Origin: a virus
DNA: 21,474 nucleotides
Strand: one strand, 5' to 3'
IMG/VR virus record: IMGVR_UViG_3300030110_002095
Coordinates: 1-21,474 of that record
Part shown: piece after piece, positions 14,284 through 20,535 of the stretch
How positions within the stretch are numbered: the first letter of the stretch is position 1
Layout of the letters: each line of letters starts with the position of its first letter
Position numbers and translations under genes: made by a program
The notes under the pieces: model-generated
Database searches by the model: none
Seen by the model: only the letters and a program-made list of their open reading frames with translations
What the model was told of the DNA's origin: nothing

Positions 14284-14665
14284 TTGATTTTTCTGGGTTA
14301 CTCAATCTCTCTAATTCAGCCATAACTCTTGCTGAACCTCTATTTATTCTTCTTTGCATGTCTTCTGGATTAGCTAGAGCAGATTCATCTAAATCTAAGT
14401 TTGCAAATGTTTTCCGTAGTTTGTTTACATTTTCCATAGCTTTTTTATTCTCTGCTGCAAGTGTATTCATTTGTTGTTGTTGTTGCTTTGCTTGTTCTAG
14501 ATGCTTTTCTATTGCATCGTTTTGTTTTTGTATCTCTGTTTCTAAGATTAATTGATTTCCTTTGAGGGTGCTTATCTGATCTGCTTGATAATCTATGTAC
14601 CAAGCTGATCCAGCAATTGATACTACTAACAGTCCGCTTAATATTATTGATAGTTTTAATCCCAT
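14261..14665 (-). CDS. Inner-membrane coiled-coil protein, probable i-spanin (Rz-like)
   Basis: 134 residues. An N-terminal membrane anchor (about residues 5-25, SIILSGLLVVSIAGSAWYI) is followed by a long periplasmic coiled coil rich in Gln, Lys and Glu (QISTLKGNQLILETEIQKQ, then a Gln run and AENKKAMENVNKLR) and a charged tail with NRGSARVMAELERL. This is the standard Rz organisation. The gene overlaps the cyclase stop by 10 bases and the lipoprotein start by 23. It is predicted to pair with the lipoprotein at the outer membrane. Confidence 0.8.
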   Translation of the reverse strand: MGLKLSIILSGLLVVSIAGSAWYIDYQADQISTLKGNQLILETEIQKQNDAIEKHLEQAKQQQQQMNTLAAENKKAMENVNKLRKTFANLDLDESALANPEDMQRRINRGSARVMAELERLSNPEKSNEKSSTN

Positions 14666-16401
14666 GTATATATATTTAAAGGTTTACTTATACCTTTTAC
14701 CTCTATTGGTTTTAATGATTTTAGCTTAAATCCACAATTTTTTGCAGTCTCCTCTGCAATTATTAAATCTACGCCTACTGTTTTGCAACTTGATTCACAC
14801 CTAGCAGCTATATTTACAGCAGAACCAATAGCTGTGTAATCAAATCTAGTGGACGACCCACAGTTACCTATCACAGCTTCACCAGTGTTTACTCCCACTC
14901 CTATTTCAACACCAATATCTGCGAGTTTAAATTGATCTTGTATTTCTTTAGCACATAATACAGCTGCTTCTTCGTGATTTTCCAAGTCTAAAGGAGCGTT
15001 AAATATGGCAAACATGGCGTCCCCTATGTACTTGTCTATCATACCGTCATACCTTTTTACTGTTTCAGATTGTATAGTTAAAGCCTCATTCATAATTTTA
15101 ATTACGCTTTCAGGGTCCATAGTTTCGCTCATAGCTGTAAAACCTCGCACGTCTGTGAATAAAAATGTGCATCTTTTCTTTTCACCACCCAACTTTAGTA
15201 GACTAGGATCAGATTGTAGAGCCTTTACTTGTCTAGGATCTAAGTAATGCTCAAATTGTTTTTTAATTTGCTGTCGTAGTTTGTATTGTTCTCTAAAACG
15301 CAAATAGAAAGCTACTGTGGCTGTAATAAATTGTGACACCAAAGCCCAAGTTACATCTATCAAGATACCATTTTGTATGGTATTTACTCCGTAAAAGGCT
15401 GTGGATGCAAACACTACAGCAAAAAATAATACGCCCCATGTGATACCAAAAACATTCAATACAAGCCAAACAAAAACTAAAGAGAACAAAAATATTAATA
15501 ACTCTAGAGCCAATGCGTAGTCAGGTATGTACGGACTATCTTGTATAAGTATAGATTCAGCAAGCGCTGCTTGTATTTTATGTGGTTCTAACAGACCTAC
15601 TGGTGTAGCAAGCTGCGGCATAATACCTTTTGCAGTAAACCCAACGAATACAAATTTATTTTCTACATCCATCTCTGCTAAAGATGTTTCACGTGGAACA
15701 ACCCAAGAAATCCATTTACGACCTAGACTATCAGTTTTTACTGGAGGTAATCCTTTTACTCTGACTTCTTCAACACCATTATCATTAGTTTTTATAACGT
15801 AGGTATCTGCTCCAGCTAAAACTTTGAGAACTTCTGTACCGTATGAAGATACCCAACCATTAGGAGTACGCATCAGTAAGGGCAGCCTACGTATTAAATT
15901 ATCAGCATCCGTACGAGCAACTGCTATACCTTGACTGGCGTTATGTTTCAAAACATCTATATTTTGTATAACACCTGTTGCCATCATGCCACCAGTATTT
16001 TCAGGACCTAAAATCACAGTGCCAGATGTAGGCGGATACTCACCTTTACCTTCAAACATAGCTAAAACACTTGGAGAAAATTTTAAAGCTTCAGTAAACT
16101 CAAAGTCACCACCAAACCTATCTGGTTGTGGAAAAGCCATGACCCAACCTACGCCCATAGCGCCTTGTCTTAATAAATTGATGTGTATTTGAGCTAATGT
16201 TTGTCTAGATAAAGGATAACCACCTTCGTTAGCTATATCTTCTTCTGTTATATTTAAAACTACAAAATTGCCTGATTCTTCCTTTTCTTGTATAAAACTA
16301 TCAAATGTTTTTAATTTTAATATCTCATAAGCAATTGGTTGAAAATAATAAACAGATCCAAGTGCCATAAATAAAATTAAAAATATAATAGTTTTTTTCA
16401 T
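14656..16401 (-). CDS. CHASE2-domain class III adenylate cyclase
   Basis: 581 residues. TM1 is at about 4-20; an extracytoplasmic CHASE2 sensor spans about 25-290 (FVFVGFTAKGI and a PHKIQAALAESIL helix are typical); three TM helices lie at about 298-317, 320-337 and 345-367; a short linker (KQFEHYLDPRQV) precedes the cyclase homology domain at about 408-581. Catalytic residues are all present: metal Asp417 (LFTDVRGF) and Asp461 (IGDAMF), adenine-selecting Lys457 and Asp521 (DKYIGD, FDYTAIG), and transition-state Asn530 and Arg534 (VNIAAR). It should therefore make cAMP from ATP at the inner membrane, most likely as a homodimer, in response to a periplasmic signal. Its ATG overlaps the FecR gene stop (ATGA). 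CHASE2 cyclases beside FecR-domain genes are a familiar bacterial pairing. A cyclase of this type on a phage is unusual. Confidence 0.93.
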   Translation of the reverse strand: MKKTIIFLILFMALGSVYYFQPIAYEILKLKTFDSFIQEKEESGNFVVLNITEEDIANEGGYPLSRQTLAQIHINLLRQGAMGVGWVMAFPQPDRFGGDFEFTEALKFSPSVLAMFEGKGEYPPTSGTVILGPENTGGMMATGVIQNIDVLKHNASQGIAVARTDADNLIRRLPLLMRTPNGWVSSYGTEVLKVLAGADTYVIKTNDNGVEEVRVKGLPPVKTDSLGRKWISWVVPRETSLAEMDVENKFVFVGFTAKGIMPQLATPVGLLEPHKIQAALAESILIQDSPYIPDYALALELLIFLFSLVFVWLVLNVFGITWGVLFFAVVFASTAFYGVNTIQNGILIDVTWALVSQFITATVAFYLRFREQYKLRQQIKKQFEHYLDPRQVKALQSDPSLLKLGGEKKRCTFLFTDVRGFTAMSETMDPESVIKIMNEALTIQSETVKRYDGMIDKYIGDAMFAIFNAPLDLENHEEAAVLCAKEIQDQFKLADIGVEIGVGVNTGEAVIGNCGSSTRFDYTAIGSAVNIAARCESSCKTVGVDLIIAEETAKNCGFKLKSLKPIEVKGISKPLNIYTWD

Positions 16402-17513
16402 CCAGACCCTTGCTTGATAGTAATAGTGGTTGAAGAACCGCCATTTACTTTCACTGTATTTGATACTCCGTCTTGTACTAAGATGATAGTATAGCTTTGA
16501 GAACCGTCTAATGACAGTCTTGCGCTTTGGCTTACGGATCTAATCATACTTATGTTTTGACCTGATACTATAGTAGTAATCTGTGTGTCTTTGTCTTGGC
16601 CTATATCTGTACCAGTGATACGTATACCTACACCACCCTTTTTGAGTTGATCTTCTTCTTTGGATATTGCCAAAGCATCTATAACATTAAGCAAATCCTC
16701 AAGAAAATTTACGTCTAAATAATTTATATCTAATTCAGTAAATTCAAGATCAGCCTCTGTATCAAGAAAATCTTCATTTAAATAATCAATATCTAGATCG
16801 TTAAAATCCAAATAGTCTACTGTCGATTTTGATTGTGTCTCTTGTATTTGTTTATCTGTTTCCTCTGGTGGATTGACGATCAACATGTTATCAATCAAAT
16901 CTAGCGATATATCTAAAGTTACAGGCTTAGTGGGATTGTTCTCGTATACAGATACAGTTGTTGCCTGGTATGGTTTATTCAACGTCACACTACCCATAGC
17001 TGTAGATACCATGATTTCACCACTAGATATACCATTCTCATCAGGTAACAGTATGACAAGGGATCTACCTAATTCATCTACTGTACAAGTAAAGTCTGTG
17101 CCTCTAATTGCTATATCAGCGGTAGGAGTCTTGATAGATATATTGCTTTTATTATTGAATTTGCCTGTGATGAATCTTGCTGTGCCACTAGCAAACTTCA
17201 AGGCCATTTTTGATTTTGAAGGATCAGGATCATAGATATATTCATCTATAACCAATTTTGAATGTTCTGTCAGTTTTACTGTAGAAGAGTCTTCAAAAGT
17301 TATGGCGACTCTGCCCGCTTCTGTGCGGACATCATCCATTTGTTGTATATCAAACTCTAGTTCAGCACCATAAGGCTTGTCTCGTAGAACTTGAGCATTA
17401 CCTCTAAGTTCTGAAATTGCGCCTATCTCAACAGACGAATGAAGTAGTTGAGTCTGACTGAGTAACGCAAACAGTACCGTTAGAGCCAACAGACGTAATT
17501 TTGAGCCAGTCAT
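16398..17513 (-). CDS. Periplasmic FecR-domain protein with acidic repeat and curlin-like C-terminus
   Basis: 371 residues. The signal peptide is at about 1-27 (KLRLLALTVLFALL core). The FecR domain is at about 30-190: FASGTARFITGKF followed by ISIKTPTADIAIRGTDFTC is the family signature. Residues about 233-275 are a degenerate acidic repeat of units like DINYLDVNFLE. The C-terminal 32 residues contain LVQDGVSNTV, a Q-x-G-x-x-N pattern as in curlin repeats, then NGGSSTTITIKQGSG. FecR-domain proteins act as periplasmic sensors, classically with sigma regulators, and also occur beside CHASE2 cyclases. The start lies 86 bases inside the 3' end of the curlin-like gene in another frame and has no clear Shine-Dalgarno; the next Met would remove the signal peptide, so the overlap is kept. 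It probably signals to, or senses the fibre for, the cyclase (inference). Confidence 0.8.
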   Translation of the reverse strand: MTGSKLRLLALTVLFALLSQTQLLHSSVEIGAISELRGNAQVLRDKPYGAELEFDIQQMDDVRTEAGRVAITFEDSSTVKLTEHSKLVIDEYIYDPDPSKSKMALKFASGTARFITGKFNNKSNISIKTPTADIAIRGTDFTCTVDELGRSLVILLPDENGISSGEIMVSTAMGSVTLNKPYQATTVSVYENNPTKPVTLDISLDLIDNMLIVNPPEETDKQIQETQSKSTVDYLDFNDLDIDYLNEDFLDTEADLEFTELDINYLDVNFLEDLLNVIDALAISKEEDQLKKGGVGIRITGTDIGQDKDTQITTIVSGQNISMIRSVSQSARLSLDGSQSYTIILVQDGVSNTVKVNGGSSTTITIKQGSG

Positions 17514-18186
17514 TATCTTGAGTTGATTCTTGGTCTATGTTAAAAGTCCTTGTACTTCCTGTATGATCTAAGTAAAAGTAACCACCAGCGTATCCATCGC
17601 CATCATAAGTTATTGTATTATCACTACCATCAATATCCATATAGTTAGTAGCCCCGTCAACATCTATATTAGAAGTTATAGTGTTGCCTGAACCTTGGAC
17701 TATCCAATCTAAATCAAGGTTTGCAGCTAATGCTGTCATCGCATGGTTTAATGTTGCTGTGTTTGTATTGCCTGTAAACTGAACATTCACGTTAGAACCG
17801 TCAGCCCCAGTTGCGTTAGTCTCATCAGTAGACATGTTAAATGTATTGGTATCACCTATGAATGAAAAATAACCCGTATAGTTATCCGCCCATATATCAC
17901 CAAGAAATTTATTAGTATTACCTTTTTGTAAAATATCTAAAGTCATGGTTGTGCCATCCAAATCCAATGGTGTCATATTGGAAGCACCAGCTGTTGCATC
18001 AGCACCACCTATGATATTACCGCTACCCCCAACTTGTTCTATATCTAGATTGGATGTAGCACCTGATTGATCTATAAATATTTCATTGTCTGCACTTATT
18101 AAATGCAAAGATAAAATTAACAAACTAAAACCAAATAAAATCGCCTTGAAAAGTTCAAGAACTTGTTTTCCAGTATCCTTGTTCAT
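17428..18186 (-). CDS. Secreted curlin-like repeat protein (candidate CsgG substrate)
   Basis: 252 residues. A long signal peptide (1-32, hydrophobic core FGFSLLILSLHLI, Ala32 before DNE) is followed by about eight imperfect repeats of roughly 22-28 residues. Their shared pattern is hydrophobic-x-hydrophobic-(Q)-x-G-x-x-N-T-hydrophobic. Clear units include DILQKGNTNKF (84-94), FSFIGDTNTFN (107-117), VNVQFTGNTNTATL (133-146), WIVQGSGNTIT (161-171) and MDIDGSDNTITY (183-194). These resemble the amyloid-forming repeats of CsgA/CsgB but are more Asp-rich and less Gln-rich. Two cysteines lie near the end (CVTQS, FVC). It is directly downstream of csgF-csgG with a GAGGAAGG ribosome site, so it is the best candidate for the exported subunit. 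Amyloid formation is not shown by sequence. Confidence 0.7.
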   Translation of the reverse strand: MNKDTGKQVLELFKAILFGFSLLILSLHLISADNEIFIDQSGATSNLDIEQVGGSGNIIGGADATAGASNMTPLDLDGTTMTLDILQKGNTNKFLGDIWADNYTGYFSFIGDTNTFNMSTDETNATGADGSNVNVQFTGNTNTATLNHAMTALAANLDLDWIVQGSGNTITSNIDVDGATNYMDIDGSDNTITYDGDGYAGGYFYLDHTGSTRTFNIDQESTQDNDWLKITSVGSNGTVCVTQSDSTTSFVC

Positions 18187-18955
18187 ATCCTTCCTCTATT
18201 GTTTGTAAAACAGCTGTCTCGATAGCCATCTGTAAAGCAATATTTATAGACTCATTCTCTACTATACCGCTCTCTATTTCAACTAATTCGGTGTTATTTG
18301 CATAAAATCTGAACACATCAGAAGATACAGATGCGCTAAGTATTGTTTTGGTAACTAACACTTCAAGTAATATTTTACCTGTCAAAACAGATACAGTTCG
18401 TAAAGATATAGTTACTGAGTCCTGTCTGTATTCTTTTGATGCACCTATACCTAAATATCTTGCACCAGCTCCACCTGACTTGATATTGGTTTCATAACCT
18501 ACAACTCCGCCCTCCATCAACAAGCCAGCGAATAGTAAAGGTTTGAGTTGTTGTTTTTCATCAAAATTTTCTCTGGCAGAACGAATAATTTGTCTTTCTT
18601 TTGTTAGATGATCTAATCCTGTACGCTCTACAACATCAAACACACCAGAATGTTGCAAGGCCCTAATCAAATAGGCATCAGGTGATTGTGTGATAGCCGT
18701 ACTAAAGCTCGCATATTGGCTGTTGCTTCTGCGCTGTCCTGTATCGTCTTTGAAAGAACCAGGATATACAGCTACTACAGGTTTGCGTTCGGGAGTAGGA
18801 ACTTCTGCTAGTTTGGTCAATAAAGAACCAACCTCTGCTGACTCAATATTTCTTACGGGTGGTATTCCATTGTCTAATGGCGGTATGGTTAAGGCGCAAC
18901 TAGAAAGTAAAAGAACCGAGAGGTACAGTAATTTCTGTTGTATTGCCTTCTTCAT
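18155..18955 (-). CDS. csgG: CsgG, curli secretion outer-membrane lipoprotein pore
   Basis: 266 residues, close to the 277 of E. coli CsgG. The lipoprotein signal ends LLLSSC with Cys20. The mature core aligns well: PVVAVYPGSFKDDTGQ, FSTAITQSPDAYLIRAL, VFDVVERTGLDHLTKER, GGVVGYETNIKSGGAGARY with LGIGA, and KTILSASVSSDVFRF. The KSGGxGARYxGIGA block and the VERxGLxxLxxER block are strong family markers. CsgG forms a nine-subunit outer-membrane barrel that exports unfolded curli subunits. The constriction residues differ from E. coli: by ungapped alignment Phe84 equals Phe56, but Tyr51 and Asn55 are both replaced by Ser, with a Tyr two residues downstream of the Tyr51 position (Tyr81). The start has no Shine-Dalgarno and lies 56 bases inside csgF. 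Confidence 0.95.
   Translation of the reverse strand: MKKAIQQKLLYLSVLLLSSCALTIPPLDNGIPPVRNIESAEVGSLLTKLAEVPTPERKPVVAVYPGSFKDDTGQRRSNSQYASFSTAITQSPDAYLIRALQHSGVFDVVERTGLDHLTKERQIIRSARENFDEKQQLKPLLFAGLLMEGGVVGYETNIKSGGAGARYLGIGASKEYRQDSVTISLRTVSVLTGKILLEVLVTKTILSASVSSDVFRFYANNTELVEIESGIVENESINIALQMAIETAVLQTIEEGYEQGYWKTSS
18188..18197 (-). promoter_or_regulatory. Shine-Dalgarno of the curlin-like gene, inside csgG
   Basis: On the minus strand AGAGGAAGGA lies just before the ATG at 18186, with GAGG about six bases away. It sits within the csgG coding sequence. It contrasts with csgG and the FecR gene, whose starts have no evident site, and suggests that the subunit is translated more strongly. 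Confidence 0.65.
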
Positions 18956-19367
18956 CTGTAATTATTAGTGTTACCTTATCGTCTTCTACTCTATATTCTA
19001 TGGTGTTGCCTTCTAATTCTAAAGTGCCGAACTCAGATGCAGTCTCACCAAATAAACTATCAACCAACTGTCTGCTTAGTTGTGCGTATATTCTACTCTC
19101 TAAATTACGTATAAATCTTGCAAGAGTGGTGTTATCTGCTTCTCTCTCTAAATCTTCTACATAAGCTTTGATTTCCTCACGTATAGCTTCTTTTCTATTG
19201 AACTCTTGGTTTTCAATGGTTAAATAATGACTTGATGTTCCAACACCTGAAAAACTAGGATTTTTGAACTTATGTGTCATCTCATCTGCTTGTACAGATA
19301 AAACCAAAAACATAACAATAATTATGGAAGCTATCAGCAATACTTCATCAGGACGTTTAGAAGGCAT
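18900..19367 (-). CDS. csgF: CsgF, curli secretion pore accessory/cap protein
   Basis: From the ATG at 19367 the protein is 155 residues (E. coli CsgF is 138). A signal peptide with a strong hydrophobic core (VLLIASIIIVMFLVLSVQA) is cut before DEM. The mature N-terminus DEMTHKFKNPSFSG matches the CsgF signature MTxxFxNPxFxG, which inserts into the CsgG pore. A helical region (FIRNLESRIYAQLSRQLVDSLF) and C-terminal beta strands (NTIEYRVEDDKVTLIITDEEG, ITVPLGSFTF) agree with the family fold. The frame is open to 19445, but the extra 26 residues overlap the upstream gene and precede a perfect signal peptide, so 19367 is chosen. The C-terminal 18 codons overlap csgG. CsgF couples secretion to nucleation at the cell surface in curli systems. 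Confidence 0.92.
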   Translation of the reverse strand: MPSKRPDEVLLIASIIIVMFLVLSVQADEMTHKFKNPSFSGVGTSSHYLTIENQEFNRKEAIREEIKAYVEDLEREADNTTLARFIRNLESRIYAQLSRQLVDSLFGETASEFGTLELEGNTIEYRVEDDKVTLIITDEEGNTTEITVPLGSFTF

Positions 19368-19372
19368 AATTT

Positions 19373-19570
19373 TTATAGATAAGTAATTACTAAATCTACA
19401 CTTTTTACTGTATCTATCCAATAAAATGTTATATAGCCAAGCCAACTAAATGCGATTAGGAAGCAACAAGCTACTGCATATCTTTTCCAATTTTCTTGTA
19501 ATAAATCTAATGTTTTATCAATAAAATTAAATACTTTTTGTCTTTTTGATATTTTCTTTTTTCTTGCCAT
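19373..19570 (-). CDS. Small single-pass membrane protein (65 aa)
   Basis: 65 residues: a very basic N-terminus (MARKKKISKRQK), an amphipathic stretch, then one membrane segment (about 32-53, YAVACCFLIAFSWLGYITFYW). AAGGAG at 19581-19576 is well placed before the ATG. The basic N-terminus predicts a cytoplasmic N-terminus. It sits five bases upstream of csgF and may belong with the small membrane-protein cluster or serve the cassette. No family was recognised. Confidence 0.65.
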   Translation of the reverse strand: MARKKKISKRQKVFNFIDKTLDLLQENWKRYAVACCFLIAFSWLGYITFYWIDTVKSVDLVITYL

Positions 19571-19947: not shown

Positions 19948-20241
19948 TTAATCAACTCTTCTAATTCCCTCTTGCTTTTTATTTTTTGATTCTGCTGTTT
20001 CATCTTTCCCCTCGTTTTCTCTTATTTCCAAAACAGTATTTACCTTTTGTTGTAACCTTATCATGTCTTGATCTAGTAATCTTAATTGATCAGTTAGACG
20101 AATAATAGTTGCTTTCATCTCTTGAACAGAAGGATCTATCTTATTAGTTATTGTTTGCCAGACAAAATATACAAAATAACCTAAACCTACAACCATAACT
20201 ACTGGAAATCCAAAGTCTGCGACTATCTGAACTACATCCAT
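19948..20241 (-). CDS. Small holin-like membrane/coiled-coil protein, paralogue A (97 aa)
   Basis: An N-terminal membrane helix (about 5-29, IVADFGFPVVMVVGLGYFVYF) is followed by a coiled coil (ATIIRLTDQLRLLDQDMIRLQQKV) and a charged tail. It has the same length and layout as the adjacent gene upstream, with shared positions such as G-x-P in the membrane segment, YF at its end, and the block DMIR. The ATG immediately follows the TAA of that gene. The layout resembles BhlA/UviB-type small phage holin-like proteins, but this is topology only. Confidence 0.6.
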   Translation of the reverse strand: MDVVQIVADFGFPVVMVVGLGYFVYFVWQTITNKIDPSVQEMKATIIRLTDQLRLLDQDMIRLQQKVNTVLEIRENEGKDETAESKNKKQEGIRRVD

Positions 20242-20535
20242 TTAATCTCTTCTAGCGTCTATTTTACCGTCCTCTACAAAGTTTTCTGCTCTTGCTATAC
20301 GGTCTAGGTCTGGAGGTAGGTTCAAAGCGCTAGAGACGCTTGTATCTATACGAATCATATCGTTGTTCATAATAGATGCTCTAGTAATTAACATTTTGGT
20401 TATACCTTGTACCGTTTGTATTTCGCTAATCAAACCATCCATAAGCTGTTTCATTACTAAAAATATAAAGTAGGCCATTATAAGTGCGCCCGCAATAGGC
20501 AGGCCTAATTCAGCGATTAGATTGAACGCTTCCAA
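20242..20535 (-). CDS. Small holin-like membrane/coiled-coil protein, paralogue B (97 aa)
   Basis: 97 residues: an N-terminal membrane helix (about 4-28, NLIAELGLPIAGALIMAYFIF) and a helical tail containing NNDMIRIDTSVSSALNLPPD, ending DARRD. It appears to be a duplicated copy of the neighbour at 20241-19948, retaining the G-x-P, YF and DMIR positions but otherwise well diverged. Its function is unknown. It is grouped with the 108-residue holin candidate and the XhlA-like protein upstream. Confidence 0.6.
   Translation of the reverse strand: MEAFNLIAELGLPIAGALIMAYFIFLVMKQLMDGLISEIQTVQGITKMLITRASIMNNDMIRIDTSVSSALNLPPDLDRIARAENFVEDGKIDARRD

Follow-up and report, generated by a model that had tools for sequence, protein, structure and literature searches.

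What a phage exports through a CsgG pore of its own is the question raised by the window analysed here, that is, the whole 21,474-nt stretch of the IMG/VR record IMGVR_UViG_3300030110_002095 from a marine phage. An original prediction, made from the DNA letters, proposed that the gene directly behind csgG encodes the substrate of this pore, perhaps a diverged amyloid or beta-solenoid fibre, and that it would supply the missing cargo if no subunit gene were otherwise present in csgFG-carrying phages. This last premise does not hold, as phages HTVC008M and Melnitz carry two subunit genes each, and it is outdated by the report of Wittmers et al. (2022; PMC9599517) that CsgF, CsgG and CsgA/B are universal in pelagiphage curli modules; this had been suspected earlier still (Zaragoza-Solas et al., 2020). 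The window gene is a further, diverged member of the system published in 2022, and the cargo identity itself is not new. Based on the evidence below, we propose, with a probability of roughly 80%, that the gene encodes a curlin of the degenerate class, which serves as fibre subunit in a type VIII secretion (curli) cassette carried by the phage.

Organisation of the cassette

One of the structural proteins of the window is closest to those of phages DSL-LC04, HTVC023P and HTVC027P, and the record therefore probably represents a podophage related to HTVC023P. A packed series of minus-strand genes runs from two small membrane-anchored proteins and two more small genes through csgF, csgG, the curlin-like gene and fecR to a cyclase gene (Table 1). 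The last five, four of which have Pfam matches, stand in the order of the pelagiphage T8SS module (CsgF, CsgG, CsgA/B, FecR, adenylate cyclase), which is found in HTVC023P-type podophages and in myophages according to Wittmers et al. (2022; PMC9599517), and the same synteny occurs in HTVC008M and Melnitz. In the modules that they describe, FecR follows the subunit, often together with a second curlin and a cyclase, both commoner in myophages, and some modules lack one or the other of these two.

Table 1. Positions in the window of the curli cassette genes and of the parts of their products.
Feature	Position	Strand	Basis or remark
Second small membrane-anchored protein, resembles the one at 19948..20241	20242..20535	-	Homologues upstream of csgG
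Small membrane-anchored, coiled-coil-like protein, conserved upstream of csgF	19948..20241	-	Homologues upstream of csgG
csgF	18900..19367	-	Pfam PF10614, E 6.7e-19
csgG, outer-membrane curli pore lipoprotein	18155..18955	-	Pfam PF03783, E 3.1e-53, profile positions 4-208 of 210
Curlin-like subunit gene	17428..18186	-	252 aa; main finding
Sec-type signal peptide, residues 1 to about 32	18091..18186	-	Hydrophobic helix at residues 5-27 in the structure model; cleavage site (about residue 32) estimated by eye; AILFGFSLLILSLHLISA
Mature part, predicted beta-solenoid with degenerate curlin repeats, about residues 33-252	17431..18090	-	Alignment and structure model
Secreted FecR-domain protein	16398..17513	-	Pfam PF04773, E 3.8e-13; structure model
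Curlin-like C-terminal tail of the FecR protein, residues 341-371	16401..16493	-	Sequence comparison
CHASE2 - adenylate/guanylate cyclase	14656..16401	-	Pfam PF05226, E 1.2e-25; PF00211, E 1.5e-17

The predicted open reading frame is real at its listed position, and its direct succession to csgG is borne out by a start 32 nt inside that gene, while its end lies 86 nt inside fecR. It carries the only GAGGA-type ribosome site between csgF and the cyclase, in agreement with the claim that it has the best site of the cassette. The last 28 curlin codons (17428-17513, 86 nt) are shared, in another frame, with the stretch of fecR that encodes its signal peptide. The Pfam matches of CsgG and CsgF are clear and span almost the whole of either model. 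For csgF, the ATG at 19367 is a more likely start than the listed TTG at 19445. Neither CsgE nor CsgC was recognised, an Rfam scan of the window returned no match, and promoter and terminator scans of the window remained at chance level.

Homologues of the proteins at 19948-20241 and 20242-20535 are found upstream of csgG in 95 and 93, respectively, of the 112 loci of the window's clade, and in 139 others in each case. The genes before csgF are called histidine kinase by Wittmers et al. (2022; PMC9599517), whereas no kinase domain, histidine kinase included, was detected in these two proteins; the two small genes may be what those authors named so. At the other end of the cassette, the cyclase is missing after fecR in some close relatives (loci L012, L016, L029, L043 and L047), where other phage genes follow directly, and it is thus dispensable for the core csgF-csgG-curlin-fecR unit.

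Descent from curlins and association with csgG

When the window protein is searched alone, Pfam gives no curlin match, including Curlin_rpt (PF07012) up to E 1, and PHROGs and NCBIfam give no useful match, so the curlin repeat profile that had been suggested as a check fails on the protein itself and succeeds on its relatives: Pfam Curlin_rpt matches 33 of 50, NCBIfam CsgB 20 and NCBIfam CsgA 11, and the relatives outside the window's clade have clear curlin repeats. With the window's clade left out of the profile, the window protein is found at E 2.5e-33, compared with 0.11 for the best of 2000 shuffles, and the family profile matches the solved curlins of Pontibacter R15.5 (8c50, 8e-10) and E. 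coli CsgA (8enq, 0.004) in the PDB. The window protein is thereby shown, by computation on sequences, to share descent with phage and bacterial curlins, and the proposed reading as a diverged curlin gains strength accordingly from both profile results.

Among named phages, HTVC008M has at the same place, directly after csgG, the Asp-rich AGE60350, annotated as 'curlin minor subunit CsgB', which is homologous over 84% of the window protein but about 30% identical, and HTVC008M differs further in that its fecR and cyclase genes have one more curlin-repeat gene between them, with a larger product. The Methylophilales phage Melnitz likewise has a 'curlin associated repeat protein' directly after csgG, with two curlins (QZI95051, QZI95053) against one in the window. 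The two curlin-repeat proteins of the Melnitz record (locus L002, 6782-7501 and 8560-9576) contradict the absence of csgA/csgB stated in the paper on this phage.

Searches with phage CsgG proteins (three scans) and with an alignment of these proteins (one scan) yielded 199 distinct phage csgG loci. A curlin-like ORF lies within 1.5 kb of csgG in all 184 distinct IMG/VR loci with at least 300 nt downstream, and directly adjacent to it in 178, by a profile built on 50 of the counted proteins, which match by construction; of 355 shuffled control sequences, none reached the threshold. The same gene therefore accompanies other phage csgG genes as predicted, in every locus that could be checked. A pattern match in a Flavobacteriaceae locus (L295), one of 10 bacterial loci from the csgG-alignment search, is not a curlin and was removed. 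Within the window's clade the median dN/dS is 0.054 over 1766 pairs, which indicates strong purifying selection, so that the curlin-like protein is very probably made by the phage.

These observations bear on two other explanations. An unrelated virion or tail-fibre protein could stand behind csgG by chance, and beta-solenoids are indeed common in tailspikes, but the signal peptide, the cassette synteny across podophages and myophages, and the curlin homology contradict such an identity, which was rejected as having a negligible probability. The other explanation is that the CsgG/CsgF pore serves lysis or solute uptake, on a pinholin or secretin model, and that the curlin is incidental. A lysis role for the pore was proposed for Melnitz on the premise that this phage lacks csgA/csgB (Buchholz et al., 2022; PMC9004378), and the window cassette does lie near spanin-like and endolysin genes. 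However, an incidental gene would be expected to be lost in some lineages, whereas the curlin accompanies csgG at every phage locus that could be checked and evolves under strong purifying selection, and the Melnitz GenBank record itself holds two curlin-repeat genes; we regard this explanation as very improbable. The larger sample backs what had been published, namely that phages supply a subunit of their own for their curli pores, and explanations by an empty pore, for lysis or for uptake, thus lose their main premise.

Degenerate repeats and predicted fold

The original prediction described repeats every 22-28 residues, of which the motifs stand and the spacing is loose. Counted over the mature part, the protein has 8 copies of G-x-x-N where shuffles lead one to expect 2.7 (p 0.002), and 5 copies of G-x-x-[NST]-[TIFS]-hydrophobic where 0.7 would be expected (p 0.0007), whereas a strict period shows weakly, with no BLOSUM autocorrelation rising above the 95th percentile of shuffles. 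Measured against the regular N-x-hydrophobic-x-hydrophobic-x-Q strand pairs of curlins, with about 23 residues per repeat, the protein has an enriched motif and five Gln positions that are invariant, but its repeats vary in form and other residues stand in place of many N/Q. Ten residues are invariant in the 50-sequence alignment (Q40, Q51, Q87, G89, N92, G111, N114, G210, Q219 and Q243), and the most conserved stretch is the N-terminal NEIFIDQSG..LDIEQ. The protein was rightly described as Asp-rich, with 11.5% Asp, though HTVC008M, Melnitz and their kin reach 11-17% and the more distant phage clades 4-8%, and rightly as poor in the inner Gln, since few of the inner Gln/Asn that stabilise curli are present. 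Compared with bacterial CsgA/CsgB (E. coli 8ENQ; Pontibacter R15.5 8C50), it resembles them in its repeats, which in these curlins comprise two strands over about 23 residues, in the Q-x-G-x-x-N motif, in the predicted solenoid and in the partner pore, and differs in being degenerate, with fewer Gln and more Asp, as far as sequence and model tell.

With 49 sequences as input, AlphaFold2 predicts a strand ladder behind the signal helix, forming a two-sheet beta-solenoid (mean pLDDT 84.7, pTM 0.78), which agrees with the suggested solenoid and not with an unrelated globular fold. Among viral models, the structures most like it belong to phage proteins that bear the name 'Curlin associated', and the top solved structures in VIA-align are beta-solenoids such as SufD (Z 19.4, 195 residues, 2.2 Å). 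Foldseek against the PDB gave nothing below E 0.001, with no curli entries among those listed, and this is no evidence against a solenoid fold because high-Z solenoid matches do come up in VIA-align. A right-handed coil is implied by the best matches of the model, in contrast to the left-handed coil of solved curli. As AlphaFold2 often yields right-handed curlins from sparse alignments (Sleutel et al.; PMC10192328), the handedness of the model is ambiguous and carries no weight either way. The same authors define a degenerate class of curlins, and the window protein fits this class.

A beta-solenoid need not polymerise, which counts against reading the protein as a fibre subunit. A protein of curlin descent could still be exported by CsgG and now be non-amyloid, acting as a soluble or cell-bound beta-solenoid adhesin, a receptor mask or a pore plug, and the degenerate repeats with many Gln/Asn ladder residues lost, the top solved-structure matches to non-polymerising solenoids such as SufD, and the single subunit of the window's clade would all suit such a role. 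However, the Q and G-x-x-N columns are invariant across the family and the phage has retained CsgF, the protein that localises fibre nucleation in bacteria. Curlins of the degenerate class are, moreover, accepted as a class (Sleutel et al.; PMC10192328), and we consider the non-amyloid alternative unlikely.

Proposed export and fibre formation

Genetic linkage and the signal peptide make the window protein the likely and well-supported cargo of the phage CsgG pore, as originally predicted, and homology, synteny and the predicted solenoid lend further support. In curli systems in general, a Sec signal leads the subunit to the periplasm, CsgG with CsgF exports the unfolded chain, and folding and stacking take place outside. 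The phage cassette has the components for such a route, save that no CsgE was recognised, and for the phage system we propose the corresponding steps. First, the Sec signal peptide would take the curlin chain to the periplasm, and the phage CsgG pore together with CsgF would then export it, unfolded, across the host outer membrane. Once outside, the chain could fold into a short solenoid rich in Asp, and such solenoids, stacked end to end, would constitute a curli-like fibre on the surface of the infected cell. In the clade of the window phage, the curlin would act as the sole subunit, because the second, larger curlin that related myophages have between fecR and the cyclase is absent. The likeliest benefit would be a change of the infected-cell surface leading to the exclusion of rival phages or to aggregation with neighbouring hosts, as has been suggested in the literature, followed by an effect on lysis timing. 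No clumping was seen in Melnitz-infected cells (Buchholz et al., 2022; PMC9004378).

The FecR protein and the number of curlins

In the FecR protein, a signal peptide and the FecR domain are followed by a linker rich in D and L and by a tail that contains a curlin-like strand-arc-strand, and Pfam recognises no anti-sigma domain in the protein. Its last strand, hydrophobic-x-hydrophobic-x-Q, is present in 205 of 206 phage FecR homologue ORFs but in 14 of 2643 ORFs of other kinds, and the Gln of this strand is invariant in 28 diverse members; the Pfam curlin repeat matches 1 of these 28 tails (E 0.04), and the structure model, with a pLDDT of 60 and below 50 in the tail, does not confirm the curlin-like tail. 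Against five bacterial genomes, the FecR profile gave one weak partial match. A limited literature search found no description of a curlin-like tail on a phage FecR, though one may exist, and the available text of Wittmers et al. (2022; PMC9599517) does not mention one. The tail hints at a fibre anchor or nucleator. As a tentative and rather doubtful extension, the FecR of phage cassettes might be a fibre partner and not an iron regulator; as such a partner it could take the part of CsgB by templating, anchoring or capping the one degenerate curlin. If true, this would amount to a minimal one-subunit phage curli fibre, and the refinement that this work adds to the published system is a cassette with a single curlin, in which the fibre may be nucleated or anchored by the FecR partner.

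The number of curlins differs between clades: a single curlin is found in 73 of 73 long loci of the window's clade, against two curlins in 47 of 73 loci of other phage clades, with overlapping fetches of one contig counted more than once in these numbers. Where present between fecR and the cyclase (for example in loci L131, L143, L180 and L223), the second curlin is larger and more regular. That of HTVC008M (AGE60352, 441 aa) has an extra N-terminal domain, which may be an adhesin.
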